Source: Hygrophila difformis
Lineage: Eukaryota > Streptophyta > Magnoliopsida > Lamiales > Acanthaceae
Direction of reading: 5' to 3'
NCBI GenBank assembly: GCA_030278955.1
Contig: JAOANR010000003.1
Coordinates: 33,862,080 to 33,926,079 of the forward strand
DNA: 64,000 nucleotides
The notes under the pieces are model-generated. The model did not search any database. It was not told where the DNA came from and saw nothing but the letters and a program-made list of their open reading frames with translations. Numbering within the stretch: position 1 is the stretch's first letter; each line of letters starts with the position of its first letter. The translations under genes and the position numbers were made by a program. Below, one piece after another: positions 7,860-64,000 of this stretch.

Positions 7860-9513
7860 CTGTAAAAGAAAAATAACAACGGGTTCCGTCAGTATAAAAA
7901 TAACGAGTAAGTCAATTCCTAACAAAACAATTTAAGGGGTTACATGTGTTTAATTAAAATTACACTTTTCAAGCATTACGAAATTAATTTAAAATTCATA
8001 GTTTACTCGCAGCGGAAAAACACGATTAATTTATTCAAGACGAGAATACATAATTTAAGGACTTAATTTAAAAGCGTAATTTAAAAGCATAATTTAAAAA
8101 CGTAATTTAGAAGCATAATTTAAAAGAGCGATAAATAATTACAGCTTAATTAAACACGCACACAAGTCTTTTTTAAATTTTATCTCGTAAACTAAGAAGA
8201 GGACACCATACTGGGGAGACCACTGACGAGGCAGTCCAAATAAATGGGAGACCACTAACGAGGCAGTCTCAATAATTGTAGGACCACTAACGAGGCGATC
8301 CAAATAAATAAAGCGCGCGAGATCACTAACGAGGCAACCTCAGATAGTAGGGAGACCACTAACGAGGCAGTCTCAAAAATAATAGCATGAAGATCGGCTC
8401 AGCCTAGTGAACGGGATTTTTCGAAAGTTTATGTTTCGTTGTATACAAAGGATTCAATATCGCATTTCATAGTTCGAGTTTTCTCAAGTTTGAAAATCCA
8501 ATTCGCCACAGTTTACGCCTTTTTAAATTAAAAATTCATCTTTTAATAAAAAATTTTGAAATTTACACAGTAGCTCAAGGACACCCATACGAACAACTTC
8601 CATGTTTCGAGTTCTTGGAAATAAGGTTTCGAAGTGAGTCAAATTTCAAGTTCTTTACAAGGGAAGATTTCTGCCCAAAGGACTGATTCTGAGATAGTTT
8701 CGTGCAACGCCGATTAAAAATTCATTTTGAGTCCAATTGATCCGAAATTTTTAAAGGTTGTAGAAAACATCTTAATGAAAAAATTTCATGTTTTAGGATT
8801 TTGGAAATAATGAGATTTAGATGTTCAAAAGTCGTCACCAACACACTGTTTGCGTTCGGGTTCGAAAAACAGTTTTACACATGTTGTTAATTCGTCCGAT
8901 TTAACATATAAAATGAACTTCAAAATTCATGAAATTTTATACACATAATCTTGACACAATTATCTACAACTATTGTTTAGAAATGCAAGGTCGAATCGAT
9001 CTAGAAACGGGTGAAAAATATGCAACAAGTCGAGTCAATGAAACTGTCCAGATTTCAAACGTTTGGTTTTAATGCAGAAACTTTGCGGAACGATTTTGGG
9101 GTATCAAACCTTTATGAAAATGGCCGAAATTTTGACATAAGATAGATTAAAGTCTTATGAACAAAATCTATGTTGAAAAGTTTTCGGTTTGAATTACTGA
9201 AGGTCGGGTTTTAGGCGAGTTTCTGAGATTGGTCGAAAATAGGGTTTTTGAAAACCGATTTTAGTTACGTGCCTAGATCTTAAGTTTTAAATGACAATAA
9301 ACCACAAAAATTGTAGATTAAGGTCTTGACTTACTTAGTTAGAGAATAGGGTTGCTGTAAGGGATTTCTGGACGTCCTAAGGTCGCGATGAACGGCCAAC
9401 TTCTCCGATCGCTTTTTGTTCGTCCCCCGACTTGAAATCGTAGCAAAGGGAAGATGGTTAGATTTCGAGTTTTTAAGACTTATGGACGACTTAAACACTA
9501 TAATATGACTTAC
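7860..9513 (-). other. Predicted leader intron in the E2 3' LTR
   Basis: On the minus strand two GTAAGT donors occur, at 9513-9508 (context CTTGGTAAGTCA) and 9334-9329. The acceptor is a pyrimidine-rich tract ending CTTTTACAG at 7860, followed by AGTATG. The same donor and acceptor layout occurs in E3, E4 and E5. It is a prediction from sequence only. Confidence 0.45.
8216..8374 (-). repeat. Tandem covarying hairpin array in the E2 3' LTR
   Basis: It holds five units with the constant core CACTAACGAGGC flanked by short inverted arms (GAGAC with GTCTC, GGAC with GTCC, GAGAT with ATCTC). The first unit joins a GAGAC left arm to a GTCC right arm, as if two units of the six-unit array at 16970-17165 had fused by deletion. 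The arms of different units differ, but usually in compensating pairs. Confidence 0.8.
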
Positions 9514-16264: not shown

Positions 16265-17385
16265 TGTAACACCCCGGATTTGATAACCCAGGCCGGGATG
16301 CTACCGCCACACCTCCCTAGCAAGACACGGCTCCTCTGACCTTGCCAAGGAGATGCAAGGCTTATAGGTATTCGAAAGAATTTAAAACATCTCAACATTG
16401 AGTCCGGAATAATAATAATACTTGGTTTCAAAATACGGAATAGCAATCATCCATGCATGTCAAAGAGTAGATAATATAGCGGAAAGTAATCACGGCCAAC
16501 ATGGCCAAACCTCGGGTTCAACAGGCCCGATAAAACAGTTTTAAAACGCAATGAATGAAAATGTTCATAAAAGTTTTCCCCCAAGTGCATGTGCATGCGT
16601 CACTCGACATACTCTGTAAAAGAAAAATAACAATGGGTTCCGTCAGTATAAAACTATACCGAGTAAGTCAATTCCTAACAAAACAATTTAAGGGGTTACA
16701 TGTGTTTAATTAAAATTACACTTTTCACGCATTACGAAATTAATTTAAAATTCATAGTTTACTCGCAGAGGAAAAACACGATTAATTTATTCAAGATGAG
16801 AATACATTATTTAAGGACTTAATTTAAAAGCGTTATTTAAAAGTATAATTTAAAAACGTAATTTAGAAGCATAATTTAAAACAACGATAAATAATTACAG
16901 ATTAATTGAACACGCACACAAGTCTTTTAAATTTTATCCCGGAAACTAAGAAGAGGACACCATACTGGGGAGATCACTAACGAGGCAATCTCAGTTCGTA
17001 GGACCACTAACGAGGCAGTCCAAATAAATGGGAGACCACTAACGAGGCAGTCTCAATAGACAATAATTGTAGGACCACTAACGAGACGATCCAAATAAAT
17101 ACAACGTGCGAGATCACTAACGAGGCAATCTCAGATAGTAGGGAGACCACTAACGAGGCAGTCTCAAAAATAATAGCATGAAGATCGGCTCAGTCTAGTG
17201 AACGGGATTTTTCGAAAGTTTACGTTTCGTCGTATACAAAGGATTCGATATCGCATTTCATAGTTCGAGTTTTCACAAGTTCGAAAATCCAATTCGTCAC
17301 AGTTTACGCCGTTTTAAATTAAAAATTCATCTTTTAATCAAAAATTCTGAAATTTACTCAGTAGCTCAAGGACACCCATACGAAC
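16265..17385 (-). repeat. E2 5' LTR, PBS-proximal part
   Basis: This part of the 5' LTR lies next to the PBS; it continues at 27326 after the E3 insertion. CGAAC at 17381-17385 is the left copy of the E3 target-site duplication. The U5 end carries GCCTGGGTTATCAAATCC (minus strand), shared by all Tekay LTRs in the window. Confidence 0.88.
16970..17165 (-). repeat. Six-unit covarying hairpin array in the E2 5' LTR
   Basis: Six units contain the core CACTAACGAG(G/A)C. Arms in plus-strand order: GAGAT/ATCTC, GGAC/GTCC, GAGAC/GTCTC, GGAC paired with GATCC, GAGAT/ATCTC, GAGAC/GTCTC. Five of the six keep complementary arms even though the arm sequence changes. Spacers are AT-rich and differ in length. 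Confidence 0.85.
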
Positions 17386-18043: not shown

Positions 18044-19592
18044 GTAAGTCGTTCATAGATTTCCATTTAAGTTTTTGAACCCGAAAACTCGATCTAACAT
18101 TGGATTTCTTCGTCCGATTTGAAATCGTGGCCAAAGTCGGAAGCTTGACGTTGAGGAGATCCGTTCGTAGCAAACCTAGACGAGCCAGCGACCTTAGGAC
18201 GACCAAAACTCCCTATCACTGTAAGTTGAGCCTTCCATATCAATACGGGTGATTTAGGGGCGTCCGGTATAGTCGTAATGTAACGAAACGTAAAAATCGA
18301 AACTAAAAACCCCAACTTGCGCAGTTTCTGAAATCGGCCTAAAACTCCTATTTCGAGGATTCAATCCGAGAAACTCAAAACTAGACTTTTAATCCAAACA
18401 CATAAATCTAGGTTGTATAAAAATTTCAGATATTTTCGTTAACGTTTGCTATTTTAAATCGCATCGAGAAGAAACTGTTTTGACAAAACGTGTTTGAAAT
18501 CTGCCTATGAACATGTCCGAACTTAGTGAGTCTATTTCTATATTTTGTAGCCCGATTTGATCTTTGCAATCTAAATGAAAGTTGTAGATAATCATGTCTA
18601 GTATATGTGGTTAAAATTTCAGAATATTTGGAGTCCATTTGATATGTCAAAACGCCAATTTTCCGAACTGTGGCAAATCTGTTTTGAGACAGTAAACTGT
18701 CTTCGCATTAAACTTGATTTTTGACATGTTTCCTCAACTTATTTCGAAAACGTTAAAACACGAAAGTTGTTCGTTAGGGTGTTTTGCATAAACTGTGAAA
18801 TTTTCAGATTTTTCGGACTTAAACCGAATTTTTAAATTGAAAAGGGGTAAACTGTGACGCCAAGATACTTTTAAATCGAAGGATTTTGAAATTTCGAAAC
18901 GAACGATCAAAGATTTGAAATACGATACATCTATACTTTTGAAAAACCCCGATACATTAAATCTAAACGATACATGAGATACTTGGTGGAGGGTGAGTGC
19001 TCTGCAGGGTGCCCCTCTAGCCTTTCTCTTCGGGCCTATAATGGACGAGAGAATTTGATGAGATATTACGCCAATCGGCGGGAGATACATGGCCTACTCT
19101 CTCGGGTTGTCCGTATGGATTTCTCGAGGCTCCGGAGTGGTACTGGGTATGGCAGATACGGCTGCGGCCGCCGGATCACCGGCTAAACGAGATACTTATG
19201 AAATGGCCGCGGCCGCCGGATCACTGGCTAAACGAGATACTTACGAAACGGCTGCGGCCGCCGGATCACCGGCTATACAAAACACTGAGAAATGGTTATG
19301 TAACGGGGAAATAAAAGATTTAATATTTTTAAGTATTTATTTATTCTTGCATGTCTTTAAATTATGCATTTAAATTATGTCTTTAAATTTCGTATCATGA
19401 CTAAATTGTTATTGTGGATTAAATGCATGTTCAAGTACACAATTAAAATATTATTTCCTTTAAATTTTGTGAATGCATGTTAGGAGTGAAATGTTAATTA
19501 TCTAATTAAATCCCTTTATTGATATGTTAGGATCGACTTACTCAGTATTTTATATACTGATAAAAATCGTTGTTTTTCTCTTTTCTTTTCAG
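18044..19592 (+). other. Predicted leader intron in the E3 5' LTR
   Basis: Donor candidates are GTAAGT at 18044 (ACTGTGGTAAGTCG) and GTAAGT at 18221 (ATCACTGTAAGTTG). The acceptor is TTTTCTCTTTTCTTTTCAG ending at 19592, followed by AGTATG. Between the two donors lies a conserved block (GATCCGTTCGT, then TAGGACG) also seen in E4 and in E6 at 63910-63960, so the second donor may end a small exon. Confidence 0.5.
19161..19290 (+). repeat. 45-bp GC-rich tandem repeat (3 units) in the E3 5' LTR
   Basis: Units start at 19161, 19206 and 19251. Each contains GCGGCCGC and a small hairpin of two CCGG arms around ATCA. The second unit has an arm mutation (ATCACTGGC). The 3' LTR has two units (from 26596 and 26641). 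The position corresponds to the hairpin arrays of the E2 and E5 LTRs. Confidence 0.85.
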
Positions 19593-23470: not shown

Positions 23471-23639
23471 GGGGCGCGAGCCCTATTTCTTCCTACTGGT
23501 GGCGCCGCGCGGTGGCCAGGCGCTAAAGCCCCTAACCCCGCGCGGACCCCGCGCGGGACGCGGAAAACGAAAGTTTTTTTTTCCTTTTTCTTTTCGATTT
23601 TCTTTTCCTATTTCTTTACTCATCCCCTGCTTCACACTA

Positions 23640-24819: not shown

Positions 24820-27320
24820 TGTAATACCCGTAAATTTTAGAATATAAAAATAGGAATTAATCCAATAGGAGAGAATGTTTTGTTTCCGAGAACCCGTAGA
24901 CGCGGAAATGCACGGAAGTCAAAGGACGACGAATTAGAACCCGACGGACCGAAACCGACGGTTTTAAGATTTCAAGCATGAAATCGAATTAAGTCGGAAT
25001 AAATTTATGATGAGAAGCATAATCCGAAAATGACCCGGAAAATCGAGCGCGAAAACGTGGAAGGATAGAAGTCCGAAAGAGAGGAGAAAAAGACCCGACG
25101 GATCGGATCGCACGGACCCGCCTGGACCGCAGTCCAGGCGAGGGCCGCGCGCTGGCCGGGCGGGGTTTGGCCAAAAGGCGCGCCAACCCTGCGTGGCTCC
25201 ACAGAATGTGGCAAGTTGCGCGTTTTCGGCGATTTCTTACCATAATTCGACCCCCCAACTAAGGAAAGAAGATTTTGGACGGGGGAAGGTGAATAAGGTC
25301 GACCCAGGGTTGTCTCCCCACCCCATAAGCAGTCACAAATCTCCCTCCACTCTCCCAAACTCTCTCCAAAGCCAAAACACCTTCCGGCGACTTCCCGACG
25401 ACTTTCCGATCACTTCCCGGCGACGAAAACCGACGGAGAAGGCGTGGAATACAAGATCCCTAGTGTTCTAAACTGTGGTAAGTCGTTCATAGATTTCCAT
25501 TTAAGTTTTTGAACCCGAAAACTCGATCTAACATTGGATTTATTCGTCCGATTTGAAATCGTGGCCAAAGTCGGAAGCTTGACGTTGAGGAGATCCGTTC
25601 GTAGCAAACCTAGACGAGCCAGCGACCTTAGGACGACCAAAACTCCCTATCACTGTAAGTTGAGCCTTCCATATCAATACGGGTGATTTAGGGGCGTCCG
25701 GTATAGTCGTAATGTAACGAAACGTAAAAATCGAAACTAAAAACCCCAACTTGCGCAGTTTCTGAAATCGGCCTAAAATGCCTATTTCGAGGATTCAATC
25801 CGAGAAACTCAAAACTAGACTTTTAATCCTAACACATAAATCTAGGCTGTGTAAAAATTTCAGACATTTTCGTTAACGTTTGCTATTTTAAATCGCATCG
25901 AGAAGAAACTGTTTTGACAAAACGTGTTTGAAATCTGCCTATGAACATGTCCGAACTTAGTGAGTCTATTTCTATATTTTGTAGCCCGATTTGATCTTTG
26001 CAATCTAAATGAAAGTAGTAGATAATCATGTCTAGTATATGTGGTTAAAATTTCAGAATTTTTGGAGTCCATTTGATATGTCAAAACGCCAATTTTCCGA
26101 ACTGTGACAAATCTGTTTTGAGACAGTAAACTGTCTTCGCATTAAACTTGATTTTTGACATGCTTCCTCAACTTATTTCGAAAAAGTTAAAACACGAAAG
26201 TTGTTCGTTAGGGTGTTTTGCATAAACTATGGAATTTTCAGATTTTTCGGACTTAAACCGAATTTTTTAATTGAAAAGGCGTAAACTGTGACGCCAAGAT
26301 ACTTTTAAATCGAAGGATTTTGAAATTTCGAAACGAACGATCAAAGATTTGAAATACAATACATCTATACTTTTGAAAAACCCCGATACGTTAAATCTAA
26401 ACGATACATGAGATACTTGGTGGAGGGTGAGTGCTCTGCAGGGTGCCCCTCTAGCCTTTCTCTTCGGGCCTATAATGGACGAGAGAATTTGATGAGATAT
26501 TACGCCAATCGGCGGGAGATACATGGCCTACTCTCTCGGGTTGTCCGTATGGATTTCTCGAGGCTCCGGAGTGATACTGGGTATGGCAGATACGGCTGCG
26601 GCCGCCGGATCACCGGCTAAACGAGATACTTACGAAACGGCTGCGGCCGCCGGATCACCGGCTATACAAAACACTGAGAAATGGTTATGTAACGAGGAAA
26701 TAAAAGATTTAATATTTTTAAGTATTTATTTATTTTTGCATGTCTTTAAATTATGCATTTAAATTATGTCTTTAAATTTCGTATCATGACTAAATTGTTA
26801 TTGTGGATTAAATGCATGTTCAAGTACACAATTAAAATATTATTTCCTTTAAATTTTGTGAATGCATGTTAGGAGTGAAATTTTAATTATCTAATTAAAT
26901 CCCTTTATTGCTATGTTAGGATCGACTTACTCAGTATTTTATATACTGATAAAAATCGTTGTTTTTCTCTTTTCTTTTCAAAGTATGAAGATAATGCATG
27001 AGCATATGCATTGGGGGATGGAAAACTTTAATATTGTTTTTATTGCCTTCATGATACTTGCATAACGGGCATGTAAATCCCGAGTTTTGGCCATGTCGGC
27101 CCACATTACATTCTTTTTTTCCGCTGCGATATATTATTACTACTACTATATGTGTGGATGATACTTATTATTATTTTTACATAGATTCCGGACTTGTTTC
27201 TAAATCTTTTTGCAATACCTATAGCCTTGCATCTCTTTGGCAAGCTCGGAGAATCCGTGTCTTGCTGGAGAGATGTGGCGGTGACATCCCGGCCTGGGTT
27301 ATCAAATCCGGGGTGTTACA
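24820..27320 (+). repeat. E3 3' LTR
   Basis: It is 2501 bp, directly after the PPT, ending GGGGTGTTACA, then CGAAC. It differs from the 5' LTR by one lost 45-bp GC repeat unit and scattered substitutions. It holds the same donors (about 25478, 25655) and the acceptor before AGTATG (about 26984). Confidence 0.93.
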
Positions 27321-29147: not shown

Positions 29148-31595
29148 TGTAACACCCGTAAATTTTATCATATGAAATAGAATTTAATCCGAGAAGCAAA
29201 AGGATTTTGATTCCGAGAAACCGTAAGTCAGAAATGCACAGGAGTCAAAGACGACGAATTAGAAGCCGACAAATCCAAAACCGACGGACTTAAAATTTCA
29301 AACACGAAATCAATATTAAGCCGAAATAGATTTAAGATAGAATTTATAATCCGAGAACGACCCGAAAAATCGAGGCCGAAAATGTAGAAGGATAGAAGTC
29401 CGGAAGAGAGGAGAGAAGACCCGACGGATCGCACGACCCGGTCCGGACTGCAGTTCGGACCGGAGCCGCGCGGTCTCTGCGCGAGGACGAGCCACCACCG
29501 CGCCAAGCAGCTGACAGCTGCAATTCGCGCGATTAAGGCGATTTCTTACCAAAATTTTCGACCCCGACTAAGGAAAGCCAATCCCAGTCTGGGGAAAGGC
29601 TATTAGGTCGAGAGAGGGCTGATTCCCACCCCAGTCTCAGTCTCTCAAACCTATCCATCATCCAAAACTCTCCCAAGACAAAAGCCACCTTTCCGACGAC
29701 TTTCCGACGACCTTCCGGCGACTTTCCGGCAACCAAAACCGACCGTGGAAGTGTGTAGATCAAGGATTTCAGGCTTTGAATTATTGGTATGATGTGAATC
29801 AGTTTCCTATTCGTTTTAAGATCATAAATCATCATTCTAACTTACGGATTCCTACTTGCAAACACGTTCGTGGCCAAAGGAGAAGGAGTACGTGTTGCGT
29901 AGATCCGTTCGTGGTGATTTTGGACAAATCGGTCGACCCTAGGACGTTCAAGAACTCTATTACAGTAAGTCAATACCTTTCATGTCAATACGGGTGGTCT
30001 AGGGACGTCCGAAACATTAGATGTGAAACGAACCGTTAAAATCGAACCTAGAGAAAACCCTACGGCGCAGCGATCTTGTGTGAATTTTTTGAACCCTTAA
30101 AACTATTCAAAACGAAAAACATAAAACATGAAAAACGTTTCTAAGACACTGTTCTAGTTCATGTAAAACTTTCATAATTTTTCATTGAGTTTTACTACCC
30201 AAATTCACGTCGGACATAATCTGTGAATTTATGAAATTTTTTAAATCTGACAGTGCATTTGTTCAAACTTGATGAGCATGTTTCAATGATTTCTATTTCG
30301 ATTTAATCTTTGTGATGTAAACAAAAGTTGTAGATAATCATGTCTAGTATGTGTCTACAAAATTTCAGAATTTTTGGAGTCCATTTGATGTGTCAAAAAG
30401 TCGAGTTTTGAAACTATGTCGAACCTGAATCCTGACAGCATACTACTCATGTGGAAAACTTGATTTTTGATTTGTTTCTTTAACCCGGATTGAAAAACTT
30501 AAAACAAGAAACTTGCTCGTCTCTGTGTTTTCGAGTTACTGGTAAAATTTCAGAATTTCCGGACTCAAGAAAAATTTTTAATTAATTTTGGAGTAAACAG
30601 CGTCTTGTGAAAATCGTATTTCGAGAAACTTGTTGAAATTGTGAGATTGGCCTTTAAGGTTTAAACGAGTGGAAATTCCTTTGAAATAAAATACATGAAA
30701 CAAAAGTTTTTGAAAGATCCCCATTGCATCTTGATTAAATAAAATTAGGGGGTGAGTGCTCTGCAGGGTGCCCTCCTAACTATTCACTTCGTGCCTTTAT
30801 GGGCGATGGTGACCCCGCGCGAAATATGAGAAATATTACCAAAACGGCAATGTAATTTGGGCCTACACTCTCGAGAATACCCGTATGGGTTTCCCGAGGC
30901 TCCGGAGTGGTACTGGGTATGGCGGATAGGCTGCGGCCGCCGGGCTACCGGCTAAACGAAAACTTACGAAATTGGTTGCGGCCGCCGGATGGCCGGCTAA
31001 ACAAAATACTGTTGAGATGGTGGTTTAATGGGGGAATTTAAAAGCTTAAATTTTTATTTACTCATTTAAGTCATTATTTATGCATTTAAATTATGTCTTA
31101 AAATTTATGCCTATGCTTAAATTATTATTTATGAGTACATGTGTCTTTAAGCATGCAAATTAAATTAGTATTTTTAAATTGGCAAATAAAGTGTTCTATA
31201 TGCATGATTGGAAGGATAATCTCAGTTAATAAAACGAACCACTTTATTGCTGTGTTAGGGTTGATTTATTCAGTATTTTATAATACTGATAAAATTTGTT
31301 ATTTCTCTTTTCTTTTTCAGAGTATGGCGAAAATGCATGAACATGTGCATTTGGGGGACATCTTTTAAACATTTCTTTATCGTTTTATTTAAACATGCAT
31401 ATCGGGCCTGTATATCCCGAGTTTTGGCATGAACATGTGAATGATTATTATTTTTAAGTAATTCCGGACTTGTTTTTAAACTCTTCTCAATACCCATACC
31501 CTTGCATCTCTTTAGCAAGCTCGGAGAACCCATGTCTTGCTAGGGAGGTGTGGCGGTGGCATCCCGGCCTGGGTTATCAAAACCGGGGTGTTACA
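29148..31595 (+). repeat. E4 3' LTR (Tekay type)
   Basis: It is 2448 bp, starting TGTAACACCCGTAAATTTTA and ending CGGGGTGTTACA; the right flank TTTAG (31596-31600) is the presumed TSD. It contains the conserved block CGTTCGT, the donor GTAAGT at 29965, two GC-rich units with GCGGCCGC (30930-31010) and the acceptor before AGTATG at 31321. It is more diverged from E3 than the two E3 LTRs are from each other, so it is older. Confidence 0.88.
29965..31320 (+). other. Predicted leader intron in the E4 LTR
   Basis: The donor is TATTACAGTAAGTCAA at 29965; the acceptor is a long pyrimidine tract TTTCTCTTTTCTTTTTCAG ending at 31320, followed by AGTATG. GGTATG at 29786 stands where E3 has its first GTAAGT donor. 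Confidence 0.45.
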
Positions 31596-38162: not shown

Positions 38163-41100
38163 GGTTTGTCACATTCTTCGGGTTGGCATTTGCCTTCCGA
38201 GCCATTTGTTTTGCCAAAGGTTCCAAGCTGCTTACATTGTGGTGCATTCAAATTCCCACGGGAACCTCCTCACTTTTGTTGCATGGACGGGAATATCAGT
38301 ATTTATTTTAATCCAATGCCTGCATCGCTCAAGGAACTTCTGCTGTCGCCTTCTCCAGAAGCTGTTGCTTTTAGGGCATATATCCGTGCAATTAATAATC
38401 ATTTTGCATTTACTTCTTTCGGTGTTAGGTATGACACAGATTTGGCCAGGAATAATCAAGGTGTTTACACTTTTAGGGTGCAGGGTCAGCTTTTCCATTT
38501 CATTAACCCTCTTGATACATCTACGAATTTGGAATTATATTTTTATGATAATGACCACCAATGTGTTGAACGCTCCAAGTCTTTTCCACGCATTCATCCA
38601 AGTGTCATAAAAACCATTGTCGAAATCCTTTCAGAAAATCCATACTCTAAGTTCTTCCGATCATTGAATGATGTTCCTAATTTGCCAGACTATAATATTA
38701 TTCTTCATTGTCCTGTAATTGACCAGAAAACTTTTAACAAACCCTCTGTTTCGCAGGTTGCTGCGTTGTGGCTTGAAGATGAGGGTGATGCAGCCACCAC
38801 AAACCGCCATATTAAGCTACATAGCCACGGTGGTCAGAGCCATCCTATCTTATATTATTATGGGTGTTATGATCCTCTGCAGTACCCGTTGTTGTTTCCA
38901 TTCGGTGAAAGTGGATGGCATCAAGGTATAAAAAAGAATAAACATAAACTGCCTTGAGTACACCACTCAGTTATTAGTTTCAGGCCCATTTGGAACTTCC
39001 AGTCCCGCTTCGTGTTCGGACGATCTTCTTGCGCATGAAGCACAGTGTGAGTTGTTTTTCTTGTAACTATATGGTGTTTGTCCACCTTTTTATTTGTTTC
39101 CGTTTTTGATCTTTGTACCTTCCTTTACAGTGGCTGAAGCCTCACCATCTGATTGCTCTTTTGTTTCAATTAGAGAGAATTATGCATACATATTTTAGAT
39201 TAGGCTTCAGGATTCCCCATATGTCCTGCATTTTGGTCGGCTTACCCAGCAATTTTTTGTTGATCAATACATAAAAATAGAAACCCAAAGGCTTGATTTT
39301 CATAGATCAAAGCAGGCGGACATTCGCAATGAGTTCTTAGAAGGCATCCAAGATTGCTATGCAAGTGGTGAGAAGGAGGGTGCGCATTGTGGCCAACGGA
39401 CATACTTTCCCCCGTCCTTCATTGGTGGTCCCCGTGATATGCGCCGCCGATATATAGATGCAATGGCTCTTGTTCAACACTTTGGTAAGCCTGATCTTTT
39501 TTTAACAATGACATGCAATCCAAATTGGCCTAAAATCAAAGAGTTGTTACTGCCTAATGAAGAAATGCAGAATTGGCCTGATTTAGCAGCCCGTGTCTTC
39601 CATTGAAAGTTCCTAGAACTCGAACATGATTTAGTACAGTGGAATCTATTTGGTGAAGTGATTGCATATACATATGTGATTGAATTCCAAAAAAGAGGTT
39701 TGCCACATGCGCACATTTTGCTGATACTTGCTCCAGCTTCCAAATTCTTTACAACTGATGAATATGATACCTTTGTCTCTGCTGAAATCCCTGATAAAAA
39801 TGATAATCCATATTTGTACACTTTGGTTAGAACTCATATGATGCATGGCCCATGCGGAGAATTAAATCCGGCTAACGTTTGTATGCAGGGTGGTCTTGGT
39901 TGTTCTTACAACTTTCCCAAAAAAATTTCCAGGGAAACGACGAAAGGCCATGATGCGTACCATGTTTATAGACGCCGCGATACTGGGTTTACAGTTCGTG
40001 TTAGAGGCCAACAATTAGATAACAGATGGCTTGTGCCCTATAATCCTTTTTTGTTGGCTAAGTATAATTGTCATATTAATGTTGAAAATTGTGCAATAGT
40101 TCATTCAGTTAAGTACATTTACAAACATGATAAAATACAATTTGATGTTGGGCCAGATAAAGACTATGAGGGTGTGGACAAGATCAAGCAATACCAATCT
40201 GCTAGATGGGTTTCGCCTCCAGAAGCGGCCTGGAGAATTTTCAGATTCACTCTTACTGAAATGAAGCCTGCTGTTATTCACCTCCAGTTGCATTTAGAAA
40301 ATTTCCAGTGTGTTCACTTCAATGCACGCGAGAAATTGGCCAATGTTTTGCGAAATCCTTTCAATGGGAAAACAATGCTTACTGAATTCTTTTTCATGAA
40401 CAGGACTAATGGTGAAGTGCATCGACTGAAGTTGACGTACCCTGACTTCCCCACCCATTTTGTCTGGTATGCGAGCAAAAAATACTGGCAGTTCCGAAAA
40501 GTACATCAGGTTGCAATAGGTCGTGTGAACCTTGCACATCCCACAGAAGGGGAACGATACTACCTGCGGTTACTATTAATGAAGGTGCGTTGTCCAACTT
40601 CTTTCCAGGATTTGTTAAGGTACCAGGGTAAAACTACGCAAACGTTCAATGAGACTTGCTGCCTCCGCGGTTTATTTCAAAATGATAATAGTCAGGAGTT
40701 ATGCCTTCAGGAGGCTGCTAACTTTAGTATGCCTTATGCACTTCGTTGGCTTTTTGCAACTGTGCTTGTCTATTGTGAGCCTCAAAACCCACGGGCCTTG
40801 TGGGAGATGTTTGAGGATTCGCTTTATGAGGATTTTGTCAATGTGCAGCTGCCAACCTACCTTATCTAGACTAAAGTCCTTAGCCAAATCGGTTCATTCT
40901 TGCTTTCAATGGGGAAAACCATAGAATCCTATATTTTAATTGACCATCAACTGCCCAATATTTTTCATGAACATTATACAAAAGAAGTTGAGGCTGAAAT
41001 GAATATTATTGTTCATCCTAATGACCTTGAAGCTATTCAACAATTGAATGAAGGACAACGTGATGCATTTCAGAAAATTACTTCTGCTGTTTATGGTGGG

Positions 41101-42456
41101 CAAGGTAGTGCATTCTTTGTTGATGGGCCAGGAGGAACTGGGAAATCGTTCCTTTATAGAGCCTTACTTGCAGATGTCCGTTCCAAAGGGTTTGTTGCCC
41201 TTGCTAATGCGAGCTCTGGGATAGCAGCTTCATTACTTCCTGGTGGCCGGACAACTCACTCTCGGTTTAAAATCCCATTTGACACTTCAAATGGGACACA
41301 CTGTCGGTTAAGTAAACAAAGTTCGTTAGCAAAATTGATCAAGGAAAGCAAGCTCATTTTATGGGATGAAGTTACCATGTCTAAGAAATGTGCGATTGAA
41401 GCGCTGAATGAACTGCTCCAGGATGTGATGAGTACAGATGTTCTGTTCGGAGGAAAAGTTGTTGTTTTGGGGGGTGATTTCCGGCAAACGTTGCCAATTG
41501 TTAGGAATGGTAGCGAAGCTGATATCATTGCGTCTTGTTTAATTCACTCTCCCCTTTGGCCTTCATTTTAGACCATCCATTTAATTGCAAATATGCGTGC
41601 TCGGTTCGACCCTGCATTTACCTCTTACTTATTGCATGTTGGGAATGGAGTTCAACCAATGGATATGCACTCTACTATTCAAGTTCCACCTGATCTTTGC
41701 ATCTTATATGAAAATGGTTTATCCTCTGTGGAAAAATTGACTGACTTTGTGTATCCATCTTTTGAAAGTATGCAGGGTGCCAATTCTGTTGCAGAGAATA
41801 GCATGCTCCTGAGGACAAAGAATTGTTACGTTGATGAATTGAATTCTATGCTCATTGATCGATTCCCGGGTGAATTAATTGAATATTTTAGTCGAGATGA
41901 AACAGAGTGTCCTGAAAATCAGGCTGTTTATGAGGACCTGCTGAATTCGTTGTCCCCTGGTAGTCTCCGCCCCCACTGATTAGCTTTGAAGGTTGGTGCG
42001 CCAATCATCTTACTGAGAAATTTGGATTCAACTCAAGGGCTTTGTAACGGGACCCCCATGGTGGTAAAAAAGCTATGCTCTAATATTATCCATGCAGCAA
42101 TTTCCTTTGGTGAGTTTAGTGGTAAGGATGTTTTCTTACATAGGATACCTTTGAAAGCACTATCCGACCTGCAATTTCCAGTTCCTTTCAAGCATGTCCA
42201 ATTCCCGATTCGATTGTGCTTTGCAATGACAATTAATAAATCCCAAGGCCAGACCCTTGATCGTGTTGGAATTTACTTGAAAGAGCCTGTGTTCTCGCAT
42301 GGTCAATTATATGTTGCTTTATCCCGTGTCCGGTCAGTATCAGACGTAAGACTTCTTATTTGCCCAACAGGTCAATTCATCAGTTGGAACAGAACAAAGA
42401 ACATAGTCTATAAAGAAATCCTTCAAGCATCGTCTTCTGCATCAGCCCCTCTGTAG
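38163..42456 (+). pseudogene. Helitron Rep/PIF1-like helicase (decayed by nonsense changes)
   Basis: The coding sequence resumes after an acceptor (TTCCATGTAG, 38162). It has a CxxC zinc finger (CLHCGAFKF), then a Helitron_like_N region (GGPRDMRRRYIDAMALVQHF), the Rep HUH motif in KRGLPHAHILL (about 39700), a shortened Tyr motif (VKYIYKHDK, about 40110), and a PIF1-type helicase with Walker A GGPGGTGKS, Walker B LILWDEVTM, GGDFRQTLPIV, TINKSQGQT and YVALSRVRS. An intron is likely at about 39048-39129. Stops are TAG 39196, TGA 39604, TAG 40867, TAG 41569 and TGA 41977; otherwise the frame is continuous from about 39130 to 42456. The enzyme would nick and unwind DNA for rolling-circle transposition. 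Confidence 0.9.
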
Positions 42457-50745: not shown

Positions 50746-51049
50746 TGTAATATCCGTAATTTTTAGGATATAAAATAGAATTTAAACCAATGAGAAAAGA
50801 GGTCTTATTTCCGAGAACCCGTAAAATCGAAAATGCACGGAAGTCAAAAGACGATGATTTAGGAGCCGACGAACCCAAAACCGACGGACCTAAGATTTCG
50901 AACATGAAATCAATTTAAGTCGGAATAAATTTAGGATGGGAACCGTGATCCGAGAATGACCCAGAAAATCGAGTCCGAAAACACGGAAGGATAGAAGTCC
51001 GAAAGAGAGGAGGAAAAGACCCGACGGATCGGACCGCACGGACTTGCCC
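50746..51049 (+). repeat. E6 LTR, first part
   Basis: It starts TGTAATATCCGTAATTTTTAG and matches the first 300 bp of the E3 LTR with many substitutions. No PPT precedes it, so it is a 5' LTR or a solo LTR in plus orientation. It is interrupted by E5; TGCCC at 51045-51049 is the left E5 target duplication. Confidence 0.82.
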
Positions 51050-51797
51050 TGTAACACCCGAGAAAAACAAATTCAAATTGTTTTGAACTACGTCATGACT
51101 TGATCCCTTCACAGGGTACGTAGGCAGCTTGGAACTAATTTCTAATTTCAGTCACAAAATAAATCACAAATTAAATCATAAAATAAATCACGAGATAAAT
51201 TACGAGATTGATCGCAAGGACGATAGGAGGAGTTGGAACTAATTTAAACTAGACTACTTAGGCCACGGAAATGTTACGAGCGATAAGCCGAACTCGTAAC
51301 AAGTTTAAGGTGAAGATTCCGAACCGGAGACGACTCGAGGAGTTGAGCTAACACATAGAGGGTAGAAAACTGATAGAGGAAAGCAAGGAAAGACCCGACG
51401 GAGCGAGCGAACCGCCGAACCGGCCGGTCCGGCCGGCCCGCGCCCGCCGCGCGGCCACCGCGCGGATGGAGGCGTCGCGACACCAGGCCAGGCCACGCGT
51501 ACTCCGCGCTGTCAAAACAATAGGTGCGCGTCACCAGCGCGCCAGAGGTGCAGAAGGTGTCTTCTATGGCGATTTTCTTGCCAAAAATCCGTCCCCCATC
51601 AAGGGCAAGCGGATCAAGGCATTGGGGGAAGCCATAATATCAGCCTTGGGCGCCCCCTACCCCATATTCTCAGAAAACCTAACCCTAAACACTTCCAATC
51701 TTCCTCTCCAAGTCAAAACGCCTCCGAACTCACTTTCCGACGAGTATTCCGGCGACGACGAGGCAAACGGGACAAAGCCCTACCCTCTAGAACCTTG

Positions 51798-53472
51798 GTA
51801 AGTAGTATTACAGTGTTTGAATTGTCCATAAGCTTTGACAAACTCGAAATCTAACCCTTTTCCTTTGCTACGATTTCACGTCGGAAAACGAACAAAAAAC
51901 GATCGGAGAAGTTGGCCGTTCGTCGCAACCCTAGGACGCCCGGAAACCCTTTCCAGCGACTCAAAACTCTAACTAAGTAAGTTAAGACCTTACTCACAAA
52001 TTCTTGTGGTTTATTGTTGTTTAAAACTCGAGATCTATACCCGTAACAAAAATCGATTTTCGAAAACCCTATTTTCGTCCAATTTCAAAAACGCGCCTAA
52101 AACTCGACCTTCGGGAATTCAAACCGAAAACTTTTCAACATAGATTTTGTTCCTAAGACTTTAATCTATCTTGTGTCCAAATTTCAGCCATTTACATTAA
52201 GATTTGCTATCCCAAATCTCGCCGTAAACTTTCTGTGATAAACCGAACATTTGAAACTGTTGACAGATTTCATTACTCGACTTGATGCATGTTTTTCACC
52301 CATTTTTAGAATGATTCAACTTTGCATTTCTAAACAAAAGTTATAGATAAATGCTTCTAGATTATGCATATAAAATTTCATGGATTTTGGAGTTCATTTG
52401 ATATGTCAAACGGCCGAATTTCAGAACCTGTTTTAAGCGATCTTTTGAGTCCGCGCGTGTACAGCGTGTTGTGGTCGATTTTTGAACACCTAAAATTCAT
52501 TATTTCTAATTTCTTAAAACATGAAAGTTGTTTATTAATGTGTTGTGTATCTCCTGTAAAAATTTCGGATCAATTGGCTTTGAAATGAATTTTTAATCGG
52601 CGTCGCACGAACCTGTGACGTAATCCGTTTTCGAGACAGAAATTATCTTTTGTAAAGAACTCAAACTTTGACTCACTTTGAAACCTTATTTCCGAAAACT
52701 TAAAACATGAAAGTTGTTCGTGTGTGTGTTTTTGAGCTACTGTATAAATTTCAGAATTTTTGGTGTGAAAATGAATTTTTAATTAAGAAAGGCGCAAACT
52801 GCGTCAAATCGGATTTTTCGAACTTGAGAAAACTCGAACTATGAAACGCGATATCGAATCTTTTGATCACTTGAAATACGAACTTTCGAAAAATCCCGTG
52901 CACTAGGCTGAGCCGATCTTCATGCTAATCATTATCTTTGAGACTGCCTCGTTAGTGGTCTCCTTACTATCTGAGATTGCCTCGTTAGTGATCTCGCGCG
53001 CTGTGTTGTGGACTGCCTCGTTAGTGGTCCTACTATCTTTTGAGACTGCCTCGTTAGTGGTCTCCCATTGTTGTGGACTGCCTCGTTAGTGGTCCTATGT
53101 TGAGATTGCCTCGTTAGTGATCTCCCGGTATGGTGTCCTTTTCTTAGTTTGCGGGATAAATTATAAAAGACTTGTGTGAGTGTTAATTACGCTTAAATCT
53201 TATTTACCATGTTTTTAAATTACACATTTAAATTACGTCATTAAATTATGTCCTTAATTCCGCTTTTAAATTAAGTCTTTTAAATTATGCAATTTCGTCT
53301 TGGATAAATTAATCATGTTTTCCGCTGCGAATAAAATATGAATTTTTAATTAATGCATGAAAAGGTAAAATCTTTGGATTTAAACACATGGAACCCCTTA
53401 AATTGTTAGTTAGGGATTAACTTACTCGGTATATTTTTATACTGATAAACCGTTGTTATTTTTCTTTTACAG
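51798..53472 (+). other. Predicted leader intron in the E5 5' LTR
   Basis: Donors are GTAAGT at 51798 (ACCTTGGTAAGTAG) and at 51977 (AACTAAGTAAGTTA). The acceptor is TTTTTCTTTTACAG ending at 53472, then AGTATG. In the 3' LTR the second donor is altered to AAGTTAAG (about 61650), while the first is kept. Confidence 0.5.
52940..53124 (+). repeat. Six-unit covarying hairpin array in the E5 5' LTR
   Basis: The core GCCTCGTTAGTG is constant in all six units. Arms in order: GAGAC/GTCTC, GAGAT/ATCTC, GGAC/GTCC, GAGAC/GTCTC, GGAC/GTCC, GAGAT/ATCTC. All six are complementary. The array lies in the predicted intron, upstream of the AT-rich part. Confidence 0.9.
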
Positions 53473-53820
53473 AGTATGTCGAGTGATGCATTGCATATGC
53501 ACTTAGGGGAAACCATTATGGACATTTTAAATTCTGCATCGTACTGTTTTTACCGGGTCTGTTAAACCCGAGGATTTGGCCATGTTGGCCGTGATTTACT
53601 TTCCACTGCATTTACTCTATTTATTTTCGCACATGATGATTACTACTATCGTATTTTGAATTAAGTATTATAAATTTCCGGACTAAATCTTGAAATGTTT
53701 TAAATCTTTTACATACCCACAAGCCTTGCCTTTCCTTAGTGAGCTCGGGAAACCGTGTCTTGCTAGGAAGATGTGGCGGTGACATCCCGGCCTGAGTTAT
53801 CAAATCCGGGGTGTTAGAAG

Positions 53821-55137: not shown

Positions 55138-55802
55138 TGTAACACCCCGGTTTTTGGTCACCCAGGTCGTGATGTCACCGCCACACCTTCCTAGCAAGAC
55201 ACGGTTTCTCCGAGCTTGCTAAAGAGATGCAAGGCTATGGTTTTTAAGAATTTAAAACATTCAAACAGCCCATTTATATATAATTTAAAAATAATGTCAT
55301 TACAGTTGCAGCGGAAAATAATATTTACATAAGTATAATGCAGCGGAATTTAAATATAGCCAACACGGCCAGAATACGGGTTAAACAGACCCGTTCATGC
55401 AATTTCTAGTCTAACGTAACATTTAAAAATAAAGCATTTCCCCAAAATTCCCATGAATGCATATGATGATGCATATTCTTCAGCTCTGAAAGAAACATGG
55501 GAAAAAAAATACGGTTTTGGTCAGCACTACGTGCTGAGTAAGTTAGCACAAACATGATTAAGGGGTTTCAAAGCCGTTATTTAGATTTTGAGAAAACATG
55601 TACACAACACCACATCATTTAACTTATTTATCTAACAATAATTAAATGGCATAATTTAAAAGATAGAGATTTCATAAGATCATAAATATAACTTGCAAAG
55701 TAATGTAATGGTAGGACATAATTTAAAAGCATAATCTAAAATGAACAATTTTCGAGTCTTCTAGTTTCATATCTCATGTCTCATGTTTCAAGTTTATATC
55801 TC

Positions 55803-55995
55803 AATTGCCATTTGGCAAGCTTTATTTATCAATTGCCTTCCGGCAAGCATTATATTTCAATTTCCTTTCGGCAAGCATTATATCTCAATTGCCTTTCGGC
55901 AAGCATTATATCTCAATTGCCTTTCGGCAAGCATTATACCTCAATTACCTTTCGGCAAGCATTATATTTCAATTGCCTTTCGGCAAGCATTGTAT
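55803..55995 (-). repeat. 28-bp tandem hairpin repeat (7 units) in the solo LTR
   Basis: The unit contains TTGCCTTTCGGCAA, a 5-bp stem with a 4-nt loop, and the spacer GCATTATATCTCAA. In the first units the loop changes (TTGCCATTTGGCAA), and some arms are mutated. Because 28 is not a multiple of three it yields repetitive open frames in all three phases that are not genes. Confidence 0.9.
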
Positions 55996-57714
55996 TTCAT
56001 GTGTATTTTATTTCAAAGGAATTCCCAATCATTTAAACCTTAAAGGCTAATTTCATGTTTCAACAAGATTTCAAGATTTGACTTCCAGTAAACCACTGTT
56101 TACTCTAAAATTCGTCTAAATTCAGATTTAATTCCAAAAATTCCGAAATTTCACCACGACTCAGAAACATCGAGATGAACAACTTTTGTGTTTTAACTTT
56201 TTCAATCCGAGATACCCAAACATGTCAAAAACATTAATTTTCGCAGAAACACAAATCTGTCCGAATTTTATATGTCACAGTTTAAAGATTTCAAATTCTA
56301 CCATAGCAAATCAACTCCAAATTTAATGAAATTTTACAAAGACCATCTTAAGACGTTTATCTACAACTTTCATGTTCGGCAAAAGATCTAATTCAGTCTA
56401 GAACTAATGTCAAAAATGAAATCAAGATCAGACCTAAGTTCTGTCAAGAAATTCAAGATCTAATTTCAAGCAGTTCGGTTTCGGTTGGTTTTCACATATC
56501 AAATTGTCACGAAAAATTCTGAAAATTTACGGTGGTGTTCTTAATGTATAGATCTACAACGCCTATGTTTAGCACCAATCCTGAATCGGTCCAGATCTAA
56601 GTCAAAAATCAACCTCAAGTTCGGACTAAGAATCTACCACCGTTTCAAGATCTAAACCCAAGGCAGGTCTATTCGTGGTCGTTTTCGTATATCAAAACAC
56701 GATGAAAAATTATGAAAATTTTACAGTAGATAGATCTATGTCTTAGGAACGTTTTTCGTGTTTTACGTTTTTCCGTTTGAAGTCGTTTTAAGGTTCGGAA
56801 AAATTAGACAACACTGTTGCGCCGTTAAAAGATTTACGTTGGCAGATTTCATGTGCTTGATTCGAATCTTTAAATCTAACGTATTTTAATTTCGCCCAAA
56901 ACCATGTAAGAGTTAACTTACAGATCTATGGATGTCTCGGCTCGATGATTCGGAGGCGTGGCTTCCACGTTCTTCGTTCTCCCTCCGAGATCCTTCGTTT
57001 TTCCTCAACGCGTCCGGATCGGGGTTTAGAATAGAAAAGAGGTTTAATTAGGATTCGTTTTCGAATCTTGAATGGAAAGGAATGAACAAGATCTTACCAC
57101 GAAAGCAAGGGTCTCCAAATTTTCGTCCAACACAGTCTTCGAATGCCTTCGTGCCTCCGACGACTCCGGGATTAGGGTTTCGACGTGTAGAGGGATTTCG
57201 TAGGGTTTCGTAAAAAGTTGGGGCTGATTAGGATGGTTATTTATAGATGGAAAGGACCTAAAGGTCGTCCAAAGGCAGCCCTAGGATGTCTTGAGTCGCA
57301 AGGTGTTCAACCGAAGTCGGAAAATCCGGATTCGGGCGAGTAAATCTCGCACGGGGCGTTTCTGCCAGTTGGCGCGGTCGTGGCGCGGTCCAAGGCCAAC
57401 AACCGCGCGGCCAGCGCGCCACTCACGCCTGGACTCCGTTCCGGGCGGGTCGTGCGATCCGTCGCGCTTTTCCTTCTCTCTTTCGGACTTCTATCCCTCT
57501 ATGTTCCCAGATTCCGATTTTCGGGGTATCTTCGGGCTCCGATTTCCTATCCTAATTTTATTCGGATCTAAATTTACATTTGGACTCGGGTTATTGAGTC
57601 CATCGGTGTTGGGTTTCCGTGTAACCATTTATTCGATTAAATTGTCTTCGGCTTCCCGGGTTCTCGGAATTTTGTTTCCTTTTTAATTTAAATTCCATTT
57701 CTCATCTTTTATGA

Positions 57715-57775
57715 TTCTTTATTTATTTATTATGTTCTCTTTATTATTTATTTATTTATTTATTTATTTTATGTT
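57715..57775. repeat. TTTA simple repeat at the solo LTR start
   Basis: TTATTTATTTATTTATTTAT-type sequence lies just inside the LTR edge. Confidence 0.85.
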
Positions 57776-57996
57776 GCAAAATTCTCGGGTATTACAATAA
57801 AATAGGCAGAACAATTAAACCATGCTTCTAAAACAGCAGTAAACAACTAACACATGTCAAACACGTAACTAAGCAATAACACAACGAAAATATAAACCAT
57901 AAATCCCAGACAACAACAACGTCCTCATAAGGAGGGAACTAAACAAAGTACGTCTGATGCAAAACCTAAACGAAAACGCGAAAACGAAAGGAGACA

Positions 57997-60702: not shown

Positions 60703-63439
60703 TGTAACACCCGAGAAAAATAAATTCAAATTATTTTGAACTACGTCATGACTTGATCCCTTCACAGGGTACGTAGGCAGCTTGGAACTAATTTCTAAGT
60801 TCAGTCACAAAATAAATCACAAATTAAATCATAAAATAAATCACGAGATAAATCACGAGATCGATCGCAAGGACGATAGGAGGAGTTGGAACTAATTTAA
60901 ACTAGACTACTTAGGCCATGGAAATGTTACGAGCGATAAGCCGAACTCGTAACAAGTTTAAGGTGAAGATTCCGAACCGGAGATGACCCGAGGAGTCGAG
61001 CTAACACATAGAGGGTAGAAAACCGATAGAGGAAAGTAAGGAAAGACCCGACGGAGCGAGCGAACCGCCGCACCGGCCGGTCCGGCCGGCCCGCGCCCGC
61101 CGCGCGCTGCTGCGAGGCCACCGCGCGGATGGAGGCGTCGCGACACCAGGCCAGGCCACGCGTACTCCGCGCGGTCAAAACAATAGGTGCGCGTCACCAG
61201 CGCGCCAGAGGTGCAGAAGGTGTAAACTTTCCTTCTATGGCGATTTTCTTGCCAAAAATCCGTCCCCCATCAAGGACAAGCGGATCAAGGCATTGAGGGA
61301 AGCCATAATATCAGCCTTGGGCGCCCCCTACCCCATATTCTCAGAAAACCTAACCCTAAACACTTCCAATCTTCCTCTCCAAGTGAAAACCCCTCCGAAC
61401 TCACTTTCCGGCGAGTATTCCGACGACGACGAGGCAAACGGGACGAAGCCCTACCCTCTAGAACCCTTGGTAAGTAGTATTACAGTGTTTTGAATCATCC
61501 ATAAGCTTTAACAAACTCGAAATCTAACCCTTTTCCTATGCTACGGTTTCACGTCGGAAAACGAACAAAAAGCGATCGGAGAAGTTGGCCGTTCGTCGCA
61601 ACCCTAGGACGCCCGGAAACCCTTTCCAGCAACTCAAAACTCTAACTAAGTTAAGACCTTACTCACAAATTCTTGTGGTTTATTGTTGTTTAAAACTCGA
61701 GATCTATACCCGTTACAAAAATCAATTTTCGAAAACCCTATTTTCGTCCAATTTCAAAAACTCGCCTAAAACTCGACCTTCGGGAATTCAAACCGAAAAC
61801 TTTCAACATAGATTTTGTTCCTAAGACTTTAATCTATCTTGTGTCCAAATTTCAGCCATTGACATTAAGATTTGCTAACCCAAATATCGCCGTAAACTTT
61901 CTGTGAAAAACCGAACATTTGAAACTGTTGACAGATTTCATTACTCGACTTGATGCATGTTTTTCACCCGTTTTTAGAATGATTCAACTTTGCATTTCTA
62001 AACAAAATTTGTAGATAAATGTGTCTAGATTATGCATATAAAAGTTCATGGATTTTGGAGTTCATTTGATATGTCAAACGGCCGAATTTCAGAACCTGTT
62101 TTAACCGATCTTTTGAGTCCGCGCGTGTACAGCGTGTTGTGGTCGATTTGTGAACACCTAAAATTCATTATTTCTAATTTCTTAAAACATGAAAGTTGTT
62201 TATTAATGTGTTGTGTATCTCCTGTAAAAATTTCGGATCAATTGGCTTTGAAATGAATTTTTAATCGGCGTCGCACGAACCTGTGACGAAATCAGTTTTT
62301 GAGACAGAAATTATCTTTTGTGAAGAACTCAAATTTTGACTCACTTCGAAACCTTATTTCCAAAAATTTCAGAATTTTTGGTGTGAAAATGAATTTTTAA
62401 TTAAGAAAGGCGCAAACTGCGTCAAATCGGATTTTTGGAACTTGAGAAAACTCGAACTATAAAACGCGATATCGAATCTTTTGATCACTTGAAATACGAA
62501 CTTTTGAAAAATCGTGTGCACTAGGCTGAGCCGATCTTCATGCTAATCATTATCTTTGAGACTGCCTCGTTAGTGGTCTCCTTACTATCTGAGATTGCCT
62601 CGTTAGTGATCTCGCGCGCTGTGTTGTGGACTGCCTCGTTAGTGGTCCTACTATCTTTTGAAACTGCCTCGTTAGTGGTCTCCCATTGTTGTGGACTGCC
62701 TCGTTAGTGGTCGTATGTTGAGATTGCCTCGTTAGTGATCTCCCGGTATGGTGTCCTCTTCTTAGTTTGCGGGATAAATTATAAAAGACTTGTGTGAGTG
62801 TTAATTACGCTTAAATCTTATTTACCATGTTTTTAAATTACGCATTTAAATTACGTCATTAAATTATGTCCTTAAATTCCGCTTTTCAATTAAGTCTTTT
62901 AAATTATGCAATTTCGGTCTTGGATAAATTAATCATGTTTTCCGCTGCGAATAAAATATGAATTTTTAAATTAATGCATGAAAAGGTAAAATCTTTGGAT
63001 TTAAACACATGGAACCCCTTAAATTGTTAGTTAGGGATTAACTTACTCGGTATATTTCTATACTGATAAACCGTTGTTATTTTTCTTTTACAGAGTATGT
63101 CGAGTGATGCATTGCATATGCACTTGGGGGAAACCATTATGGACATTTTAAATTCTGCATCGTACTGTTTTTACCGGGTCTGTTAAACCCGAGGATTTGG
63201 CCATGTTAGCCGTGATTTACTTTCCGCTGCATTTACTCCATTTATTTTCGCGCATGATGATTACTACTATCGTATTTTGAATTAAGTATTATAAATTTCC
63301 GGACTAAATCTTGAAATGTTTTAAATCTTTTACATACCCACAAGCCTTGCCTTTCCTAAGTGAGCTTGGGAAGCCGTGTCTTGCTAGGGAGATGTGGCGG
63401 TGACATCCCGGCCTGGGTTATCAAATCCGGGGTGTTACA
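60703..63439 (+). repeat. E5 3' LTR
   Basis: It is 2737 bp, ending GGGGTGTTACA and followed by TGCCC. It contains a hairpin array (62558-62742) and the acceptor before AGTATG (about 63096). Confidence 0.92.
62558..62742 (+). repeat. Six-unit hairpin array in the E5 3' LTR
   Basis: Same arms as in the 5' LTR, except that unit 4 starts GAAAC (one mismatch to GTCTC) and unit 5 ends GTCG (one mismatch to GGAC). The loop core GCCTCGTTAGTG is unchanged in all units. Confidence 0.88.
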
Positions 63440-64000
63440 TGCCCGGACCGAGGTCCAGGTGGAGGCCGCGCGCTGGCCGTGCGGTGTTTGGCCTTCCAGC
63501 GCGCCAACCCCGCGTGACACCCCAGAATGCGGCCATTCACGCGATTTCGGCGATTTCTTGCCATGTTTCGACCCCCCGACTATGGAAAGTGGATTTTGGA
63601 CGGGGGAAGGAGTATTAGGAAGACCTAGGGTTAATTCCCACCCCATTTGTGGGCCTCCAAACCCTCTCTTCTCTCCCAAGACAATCCCAAAGCCAAACAC
63701 TCTTCCGAAGACCTCCCGACGAACTTCTGGCGACTTTCCGGAAACCTTCGACGATCGTAGAGACGTGTAGATCAAGGTTTACATCCCTTAGATCATTGTT
63801 AAGGAGTATTCAGATTCATTTTCTCGTTTTTATCTCCAATCCTTAATCTAACTTTCGAATATTGGACTTGTAAACACGTTCGTGACCGAAGGAGGAAGAG
63901 AACGTGTGCGAGGATCCGTTCGTAGTAACTTTGGACGAGCCGAGCGACCCTAGGATGACCAAACACTCAAGCACTATAAGTTGATGCCTTTCATATCAAT
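63440..64000 (+). repeat. E6 LTR, second part, runs off the window
   Basis: 63440-63444 is the duplicated TGCCC; 63445 onward continues the E6 LTR (GGACCGAGGTCCAGG, CT-rich leader 63640-63700, GATCCGTTCGTAGTAAC, CCCTAGGATGACC) up to the second donor region, ACTATAAGTTGATGCC, where E3 has GTAAGT. The GT there is ATAAGT, so this donor is mutated. Confidence 0.82.

Follow-up and report, generated by a model that had tools for sequence, protein, structure and literature searches.

The window, a 64,000-nucleotide stretch of the Hygrophila difformis genome, contains five LTR elements or parts of them (E2 to E6). E2 lies on the strand opposite E5, and its 5' LTR is split by the nested insertion of E3. 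Target duplications of 5 bp are present in E3, E5 and E6; at E4 a target duplication was looked for and not found. The landmarks are:

51050..53818, + strand: E5 5' LTR, beginning with TGTAACACCC; target duplication TGCCC at 51045-51049 and 63440-63444
60703..63439, + strand: E5 3' LTR
17386-27320: E3, inserted in the E2 5' LTR; duplication CGAAC
55138-57796: E6, a solo LTR inside E5; duplication ATAAA

The E2 frames match Retrotrans_gag, RVP_2, RVT_1, RT_RNaseH, Integrase_H2C2, and rve. Judged from these frames and the LTR pairs, gag, protease, reverse transcriptase, RNase H, and integrase follow one another in that order between LTRs, the arrangement of Ty3/Gypsy elements, and E5 is an element of this type. 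Tekay/Del chromoviruses carry a chromodomain after the integrase core and have a long LTR that starts with TGTAACACCC. The E5 LTRs are 2.7 kb long and start this way. We did not adopt the Tekay/Del assignment despite the fitting LTR start, because the 740-aa E2 frame gave no match to the chromodomain PF00385 at E values up to 10; some pol relatives of E2 do have a chromodomain. Among the 120 relatives listed for the E2 pol, the named plants of highest identity (at least 90% query coverage) are Cuscuta epithymum (69%) and C. europaea (68%). Elsewhere in the window there are Helitron pieces (39607-41571), with a Helitron_like_N and PIF1 helicase frame.

Each LTR of E5 and E2 contains a row of short hairpins built on one loop core, which we call type A:

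52940..53124, + strand: type A tandem hairpin array of six units, E5 5' LTR (core search and arm check)
62558..62742, + strand: type A array of six units, E5 3' LTR; units 4 and 5 each have one broken pair
16970..17165, - strand: type A array of six units, E2 5' LTR; unit 3 pairs via G-U
8216..8374, - strand: type A array of five units, E2 3' LTR; the last unit is a fusion after a deletion

The original prediction of six units with a single loop core and matched arms in the E5 5' LTR was borne out by the core search and the arm check. The core GCCTCGTTAGTG occurs there six times free of mismatches (52946-53119), and all six pairs of arms are complementary, in the order GAGAC/GTCTC, GAGAT/ATCTC, GGAC/GTCC, GAGAC/GTCTC, GGAC/GTCC, GAGAT/ATCTC. 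With up to two mismatches the core is found at 25 places in the window, where 2.31 are expected and none of 100 shuffles reached 25; two of these places (16018 and 53999) look like chance. The E2 5' LTR has the same six unit types in identical order (C, T, GG, C, GG, T). Its third unit is GGAT/GTCC around the core GTCTCGTTAGTG, so that the five complementary units of six predicted earlier are confirmed by Watson-Crick pairing and become six of six when G-U is counted. Because this order is shared in spite of a flank difference of about 16%, the type A unit types are old and orthologous and not remade in each element. The arrays in the E5 3' and E2 3' LTRs are additional to the copies predicted originally.

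On the sense strand the type A stem extends inward by three pairs (UG, GU, CG). GAGAY units may thus fold as GAGAY-UGC-CUCGUUA-GUG-RUCUC, with five outer pairs and the three inner ones making 8 bp around the seven-base loop CUCGUUA; GGAC units have 7 bp, the outermost pair being absent. The arms GAGAC/GTCTC form an auxin-response-like motif, a reading that we rejected, as the motif is lost in the GAGAT/ATCTC and GGAC/GTCC units. The hairpin slot is followed, a short way downstream, by A/T-rich tandem repeats in the LTRs of E5, E2, E3, and E4, many of them akin to TTTAAATTAYGCA:

53214-53287, 62832-62910, 8049-8126, 16807-16881, 19356-19389, 31046-31094: A/T-rich tandem repeats

The exact GAGAY unit has 15,902 copies in the 915 Mb plant genome (246 contigs) and its reversed control has none. 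Among the matches listed, read by eye, the arms of the exact units were always matched (C-G or T-A), though the search pattern permitted mixed arms. Between E5 and E2, differences amount to 3 in 134 sites of the units, 12 in 51 of the spacers, and 84 in 538 of the flanks (units versus flanks, Fisher p=5e-6). For a broader comparison we used 94 sources, namely the four window LTRs and 90 genomic loci (L039-L128; 70 found via the flank outside the array and 20 via the unit), the loci being the first among the matches listed and nearly all from one contig. The number of adjacent units ranges from 1 to 8, and 46 of the 94 sources have six.

Across these 46 arrays, with a threshold of six arrays for calling a variant shared, variants in the units number 2 shared, 1 middling, and 64 private, as compared with 95, 65, and 346 in the flanks (shared versus private, p=8e-5). 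In the spacers 7 variants are shared and 25 are private (p=0.005). Removal of the loci that had been selected by a unit leaves 43 arrays, in which thresholds of 5, 6, and 8 give p values of 1.9e-4 to 6.9e-4 and pi is 0.145 in flanks versus 0.030 in units. The selecting pattern sits in the upstream flank, and so makes the flanks appear more conserved, not less. Loop variants in the 46 arrays are private in 14 cases, one occurs in four arrays, and none is widely shared. Only two stem variants reach 8 or more of the 46 arrays. Each is a single-sided change in unit 3 that keeps its pair, and no pair-breaking variant is this common. The less frequent stem variants divide into 29 pair-breaking and 21 pair-keeping ones, and since private variants so often break pairs, single copies decay freely. 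As a set, the arrays have barely changed in their units while single copies decay. The earlier claim of selection on the units is thus supported both by the divergence of E2 from E5 and by the deficit of shared relative to private variants in the sets of 46 and 43 arrays. Three type A arrays (L111, L112, and L113; C1, about 878-886 kb) follow one another at intervals of about 3.7 kb, an arrangement that resembles tandem LTRs or short elements; they carry a repeated unit pair, GAGACC plus GAGATT, as does L110 near 843 kb.

Pairing within type A was recounted cell by cell in the 46 arrays. Single changes kept the pair in 38 cells and broke it in 36, and three double changes all kept it. Two of the three come from L112, whose rearranged units are out of register because units were assigned by order in this count; the third (unit 5 of L107, GC to AT) is private. 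In a separate set, 519 of 548 candidate units passed a filter that itself favours pairing (no more than two core mismatches, and 5 or more of the 8 pairs formed); in these the fifth pair is CG in 259, TA in 185, TG in 69, and other in 6, and the second pair is AT in 353, GC in 155, and other in 11. The 23 window units (9 distinct) have a covariation of 0.330 versus 0.252 when shuffled, with all slides lower; 7 of 500 shuffles were as high. Like the other shuffle counts given here, this one is not to be read as a probability, since common descent links the units and the loci and is not fully controlled.

The paired differences of type A thus come down to a small number of old unit types that recur across the sampled arrays. 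The original prediction took paired arm changes as the mark of selection and named, as a result that would speak against it, unit types explained by unequal exchange among a few ancestral units. The paired difference is real, and selection on the units is supported. A compensatory double change common to several orthologous units was found in none of the 46 six-unit arrays, and that counter-argument half holds for type A, as few unit types recur and unequal exchange has reshuffled them. By that prediction's own standard, type A alone would not carry a claim of compensatory selection.

Related LTR families fill the same slot with other hairpins. We distinguish a type B row, which in some copies stands between type A units, types C and D, and the array of E6. 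Those in the window are:

19158..19275, + strand: type C array, E3 5' LTR, GCCGG ATCA CCGGC, three copies, one with G-U
30930..30998, + strand: type C hairpins, E4 LTR, two copies
55794..55999, - strand: tandem hairpins TTGCC GAAA GGCAA, seven copies, solo LTR E6

Among the E6 copies one has a GGAA loop, one an AAAT loop, one a G-U pair, and one a broken pair. The type B hairpins were excised from 25 loci via their flanks and not via pairing. Their stems are CTGCC/GGCAG (B2, B3), CTGTC/GACAG (B4, B5), TTGCC/GGCAA (B6), and GCCGG/CCGGC (B8), and the fully paired rows are 21/23 for B2, 23/24 for each of B3, B4, and B5, 20/21 for B6, and 19/25 for B8. B7 (TAGCC or TCGCC/GGCAG) has a fixed mismatch and is fully paired in only 2 of 26 rows; the pattern for B1 had no match in the 25 loci. 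Two type B stem changes occur in at least three loci, GACGG (5) and TTGCT (3), and both retain pairing via G-U. The loops vary while the stems are mostly kept, which indicates that pairing and not loop sequence is the common feature of the arrays. A fixed loop with a variable stem, as proposed originally, therefore describes types A and D and does not extend to type B.

The acceptor string TTTTCTTTTNCAGAGTATG occurs at 2526 places in the genome (control 0). The first 30 loci found with it have type A units in 27 cases and type D in 3; 12 further loci, picked from the same matches, comprise 8 with type A, 1 with A plus B, 1 with a worn C-like array, and 2 without an array. In L167, a C-like copy, the array is nearly lost. 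Type D has GGACATAAGAGCC between the arms GCTTG/CAAGC, ACTAG/CTAGT, GCTAG/CTAGC, or ACTTG/CAAGT. A hand count of the first 100 of 4013 places gave 43, 26, 14, and 4 of these four fully paired stems (87 in total) and 13 broken ones: 7 GCTTG/CTAGC, 3 ACTTG/CAAGC, 2 ACTAG/CTAGC, and 1 ACTAG/CAAGT. A narrower search gave 68 T-A, 17 A-T, 15 T-T, and 0 A-A among the first 100 of 2693. The T-T unit (GCTTG/CTAGC), a fusion of half-units that recurs, argues against strict constraint. Covariation in 22 type D units from three loci (14 distinct) is 0.224 versus 0.119 when shuffled, a value that 0 of 500 shuffles reach, and slides give at most 0.046.

Counts of perfect stems, which tandem copying inflates, exceed dinucleotide shuffles for types A, B, and D and for E6 (reached by 0 or 1 of 300). 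For type C they are not clearly above the shuffles, 75 and 34 of 300 reaching them. This result, the fixed mismatch of B7, and the nearly lost array of L167 also speak against strict constraint. Sister LTR families fill the slot with unrelated hairpin arrays that have paired arm variants of their own, and this is new support beyond type A. In the lineages that went on multiplying, complementarity has been conserved, in type A together with the loop.

With exact flanks on both sides, 979 copies of the slot measure 195-225 bases, the length of six units. No copy between these flanks had an empty slot (1-31 bases), a result that would miss deletions removing the flanks; the copy L149 has two units. 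The folding energy of the E5 array is -57.4 kcal/mol in sense (z -1.92) and -37.3 in antisense (z -0.43). Sense folds better in 46 of 46 type A arrays, but the flank does likewise in 44 of 46, and two type B arrays (L052, L104) and one of type D (L146) have little or no sense-strand advantage. For these reasons we give the strand argument from folding energy little weight.

We predict that the array lies inside an intron of the LTR leader, based on splice-like signals that are conserved among the LTRs. In the E5 5' LTR these are:

51798..51803, + strand: predicted donor 1, GTAAGT; similar places are GTAAGT in E2 and E3, GTATGA in E4, and GTAAGA in E6
51977..51982, + strand: predicted donor 2, GTAAGT, start of the predicted long intron containing the array; absent from the E5 3' LTR
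53426..53445, + strand: hairpin TCGGTAT/ATACTGA over a branch-site-like motif, covarying among families
53466..53472, + strand: predicted acceptor TTTACAG|AG, recurring in related LTRs

A donor-like signal occurs near LTR position 650-770 in E5, E2, E3, E4, and E6, with a second GTAAGT near 825-930. An acceptor-like TTTNCAG|AG or TTTCAG|AG occurs near 2170-2420 in the same five elements; the E3 3' LTR is without the acceptor G, and the type D locus L130 has the acceptor alone among these signals. In addition, CCTAGGACG or CTTAGGACG is present near LTR 800-900 in E5, E2, E3, and E4 and was not found in E6. One predicted spliced junction had 0 genome copies at up to three mismatches, which fits packaging of unspliced RNA only and also fits no splicing at all.

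The second hairpin lies 23-31 nt upstream of the acceptor CAG. In 119 rows it reads TCAGTAT/ATACTGA 66 times, TCGGTAT/ATACTGA 30 times, GCAGTAC/GTACTGA 4 times (outermost pair lost), and TCAGCAT/ATACTGA 3 times (broken), tallies that are not independent, as the 140 sources partly overlap. E6 has TCAGCAC/GTGCTGA. Among 19 distinct rows, at least 5 of them mis-picked, the covariation is above that of all 2000 shuffles and the paired fraction was reached in 1 of 2000. The 3' arm holds CTGAY, which we take to resemble the plant branch site.

We propose that the array acts in cis as a multivalent RNA element and is carried by unspliced genomic RNA alone, export or packaging being its likeliest use, and we give this reading a probability of about one in two. 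Its parts differ in strength. Selection on hairpins at the RNA level is probable. Restriction of the array to unspliced RNA is a prediction that we find reasonably likely: the slot would sit within a long LTR leader intron, and only RNA that retains the intron would carry the array. Since only such RNA can found a complete new LTR or element, an element inside the intron would mark it. A role in export or packaging is a tentative assignment, as is the original suggestion of packaging, nuclear export, or translation. A protein may bind the repeated hairpins, the Gag of the element itself and a host factor for export being the likeliest candidates, and identical loops in series would suit multivalent binding. 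The bound hairpins would mark full-length RNA for export, packaging, or both, and spliced RNA would serve translation.

Effects on splicing offer another use for the hairpins. By folding the long intron or hiding the branch site they could leave some RNA unspliced, with no binding protein of the element involved. The array and the branch-site hairpin share one predicted intron and the 3' arm of the latter has the branch-like CTGAY, but the array is about 300-560 nt upstream of the acceptor, and mere folding needs no constant loop, yet types A and D have one. We regard this explanation as unlikely. A mutational by-product, in which slippage and template switching during reverse transcription multiply hairpins and correct their arms with no function, is rather less credible still. 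It would account for arrays of 1 to 8 adjacent units, for the half-unit fusions (E2 3' unit 5; type D GCTTG/CTAGC), and for the one private pair-restoring double change in L107 unit 5. Arm correction leaves unexplained the constant loop and the deficit of shared unit change beside variable flanks, as well as the absence of empty slots, and in the 46 arrays there is one in-register double change against 36 broken cells.

At the DNA level, the units could be inverted-repeat sites for a transcription factor. Tandem enhancer boxes occur in some plant LTRs, and a conserved, palindromic motif in tandem within an LTR has that appearance. We nevertheless give this little credence: the arms differ jointly while complementarity stays, sister families have unrelated sequences in the slot, and the array, some 1.1 kb 3' of predicted donor 1, does not sit in a promoter-like place. 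It is very improbable that the array is an ordinary tandem repeat of palindromic units, conserved merely because the sampled copies are young. The 15,902 exact copies do indicate a large family, but the sampled copies have diverse flanks (in 43 arrays, pi is 0.145 there versus 0.030 in units), and the contrasts between units and flanks oppose this explanation unless conversion between loci is more frequent in units than in flanks.

The export or packaging reading can be carried further, to a self-recognition code in which a family-specific array in the retained intron is read by the family's own Gag, export and packaging are confined to that family's unspliced RNA, and arrays are replaced wholesale as families diverge. 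We consider this doubtful; if true, array and reader would relate like lock and key in each LTR family. Plant LTR elements fill much of many plant genomes. For the way in which they choose their own full-length RNA for export and packaging, thousands of natural hairpin copies in one genome, together with unrelated replacements in sister families, make the array a directly testable candidate.

Rfam 15 had 0 matches in the window at gathering scores. In the open-licence PMC texts searched, the type A core and its reverse complement were absent, and no description of such hairpin arrays in plant LTR introns was found. Searches with the core gave 9 loci with single matches and 2 with two units in a viral collection, and 19 loci with two units in a prokaryote collection; on reading, we judged the 21 two-unit loci unrelated, with L019 set apart. 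This locus (6746-6878 of JAHJSN010000058.1, labelled Alphaproteobacteria) is a contig end with a tandem row of about three hairpins, GTGTTGG...CCAACAC, which have in their loop CTGYCTCGTTAGTGG, a string similar to the plant loop. It was found through CTGYCTCGTTAGTGG itself, so that the likeness may be chance. The Paenibacillus locus L027 (4782-5003) has repeats around CTCGTTAGTGATG TTTTT CATCACTAA, a terminator-like hairpin.

Tandem repeats in the untranslated regions of plant LTR elements have reportedly been described as sources of satellites (Macas, 2009). They resemble the array in being tandem and inside LTR elements; the comparison is with the title, which states no hairpin or pairing constraint. 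Retroviral packaging signals consist of several short stem-loops in the leader of unspliced RNA. The array likewise has several short hairpins in the leader of what would be unspliced RNA, but the retroviral signals are not tandem copies of one unit and are not in a plant LTR intron. The Ogre intron is internal, unlike the intron predicted here in the LTR leader. In the available part of a 2025 review, Ogre and EVADE are given as notable exceptions among plant elements in having functional introns (PMC12786077). EVADE also differs, as its splicing removes the protease domain (PMC12786077) and our predicted intron is in the LTR leader. The same part of the review covers the IAP RTE, the MusD MTE, and CAR motifs, structured or repeated cis RNA elements that help unspliced or intronless RNA to leave the nucleus, and calls the status of CAR-like motifs in plant LTR elements unclear (PMC12786077). 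These three are not from plant elements; in animal elements, structured RNA serves the export of unspliced RNA (PMC12786077). In BARE, a plant LTR element, the RNA that is spliced and translated is separate from the one that is packaged, and amplification of spliced-RNA copies from genomic DNA was unsuccessful, according to the portion of the report available (PMC3735527). BARE differs in that it is a Copia element with a 104-nt intron just after gag, for which that portion describes no tandem hairpin array; it resembles the array-bearing elements as a plant LTR element in which spliced and packaged RNA are separate (PMC3735527), a split that we propose for ours.
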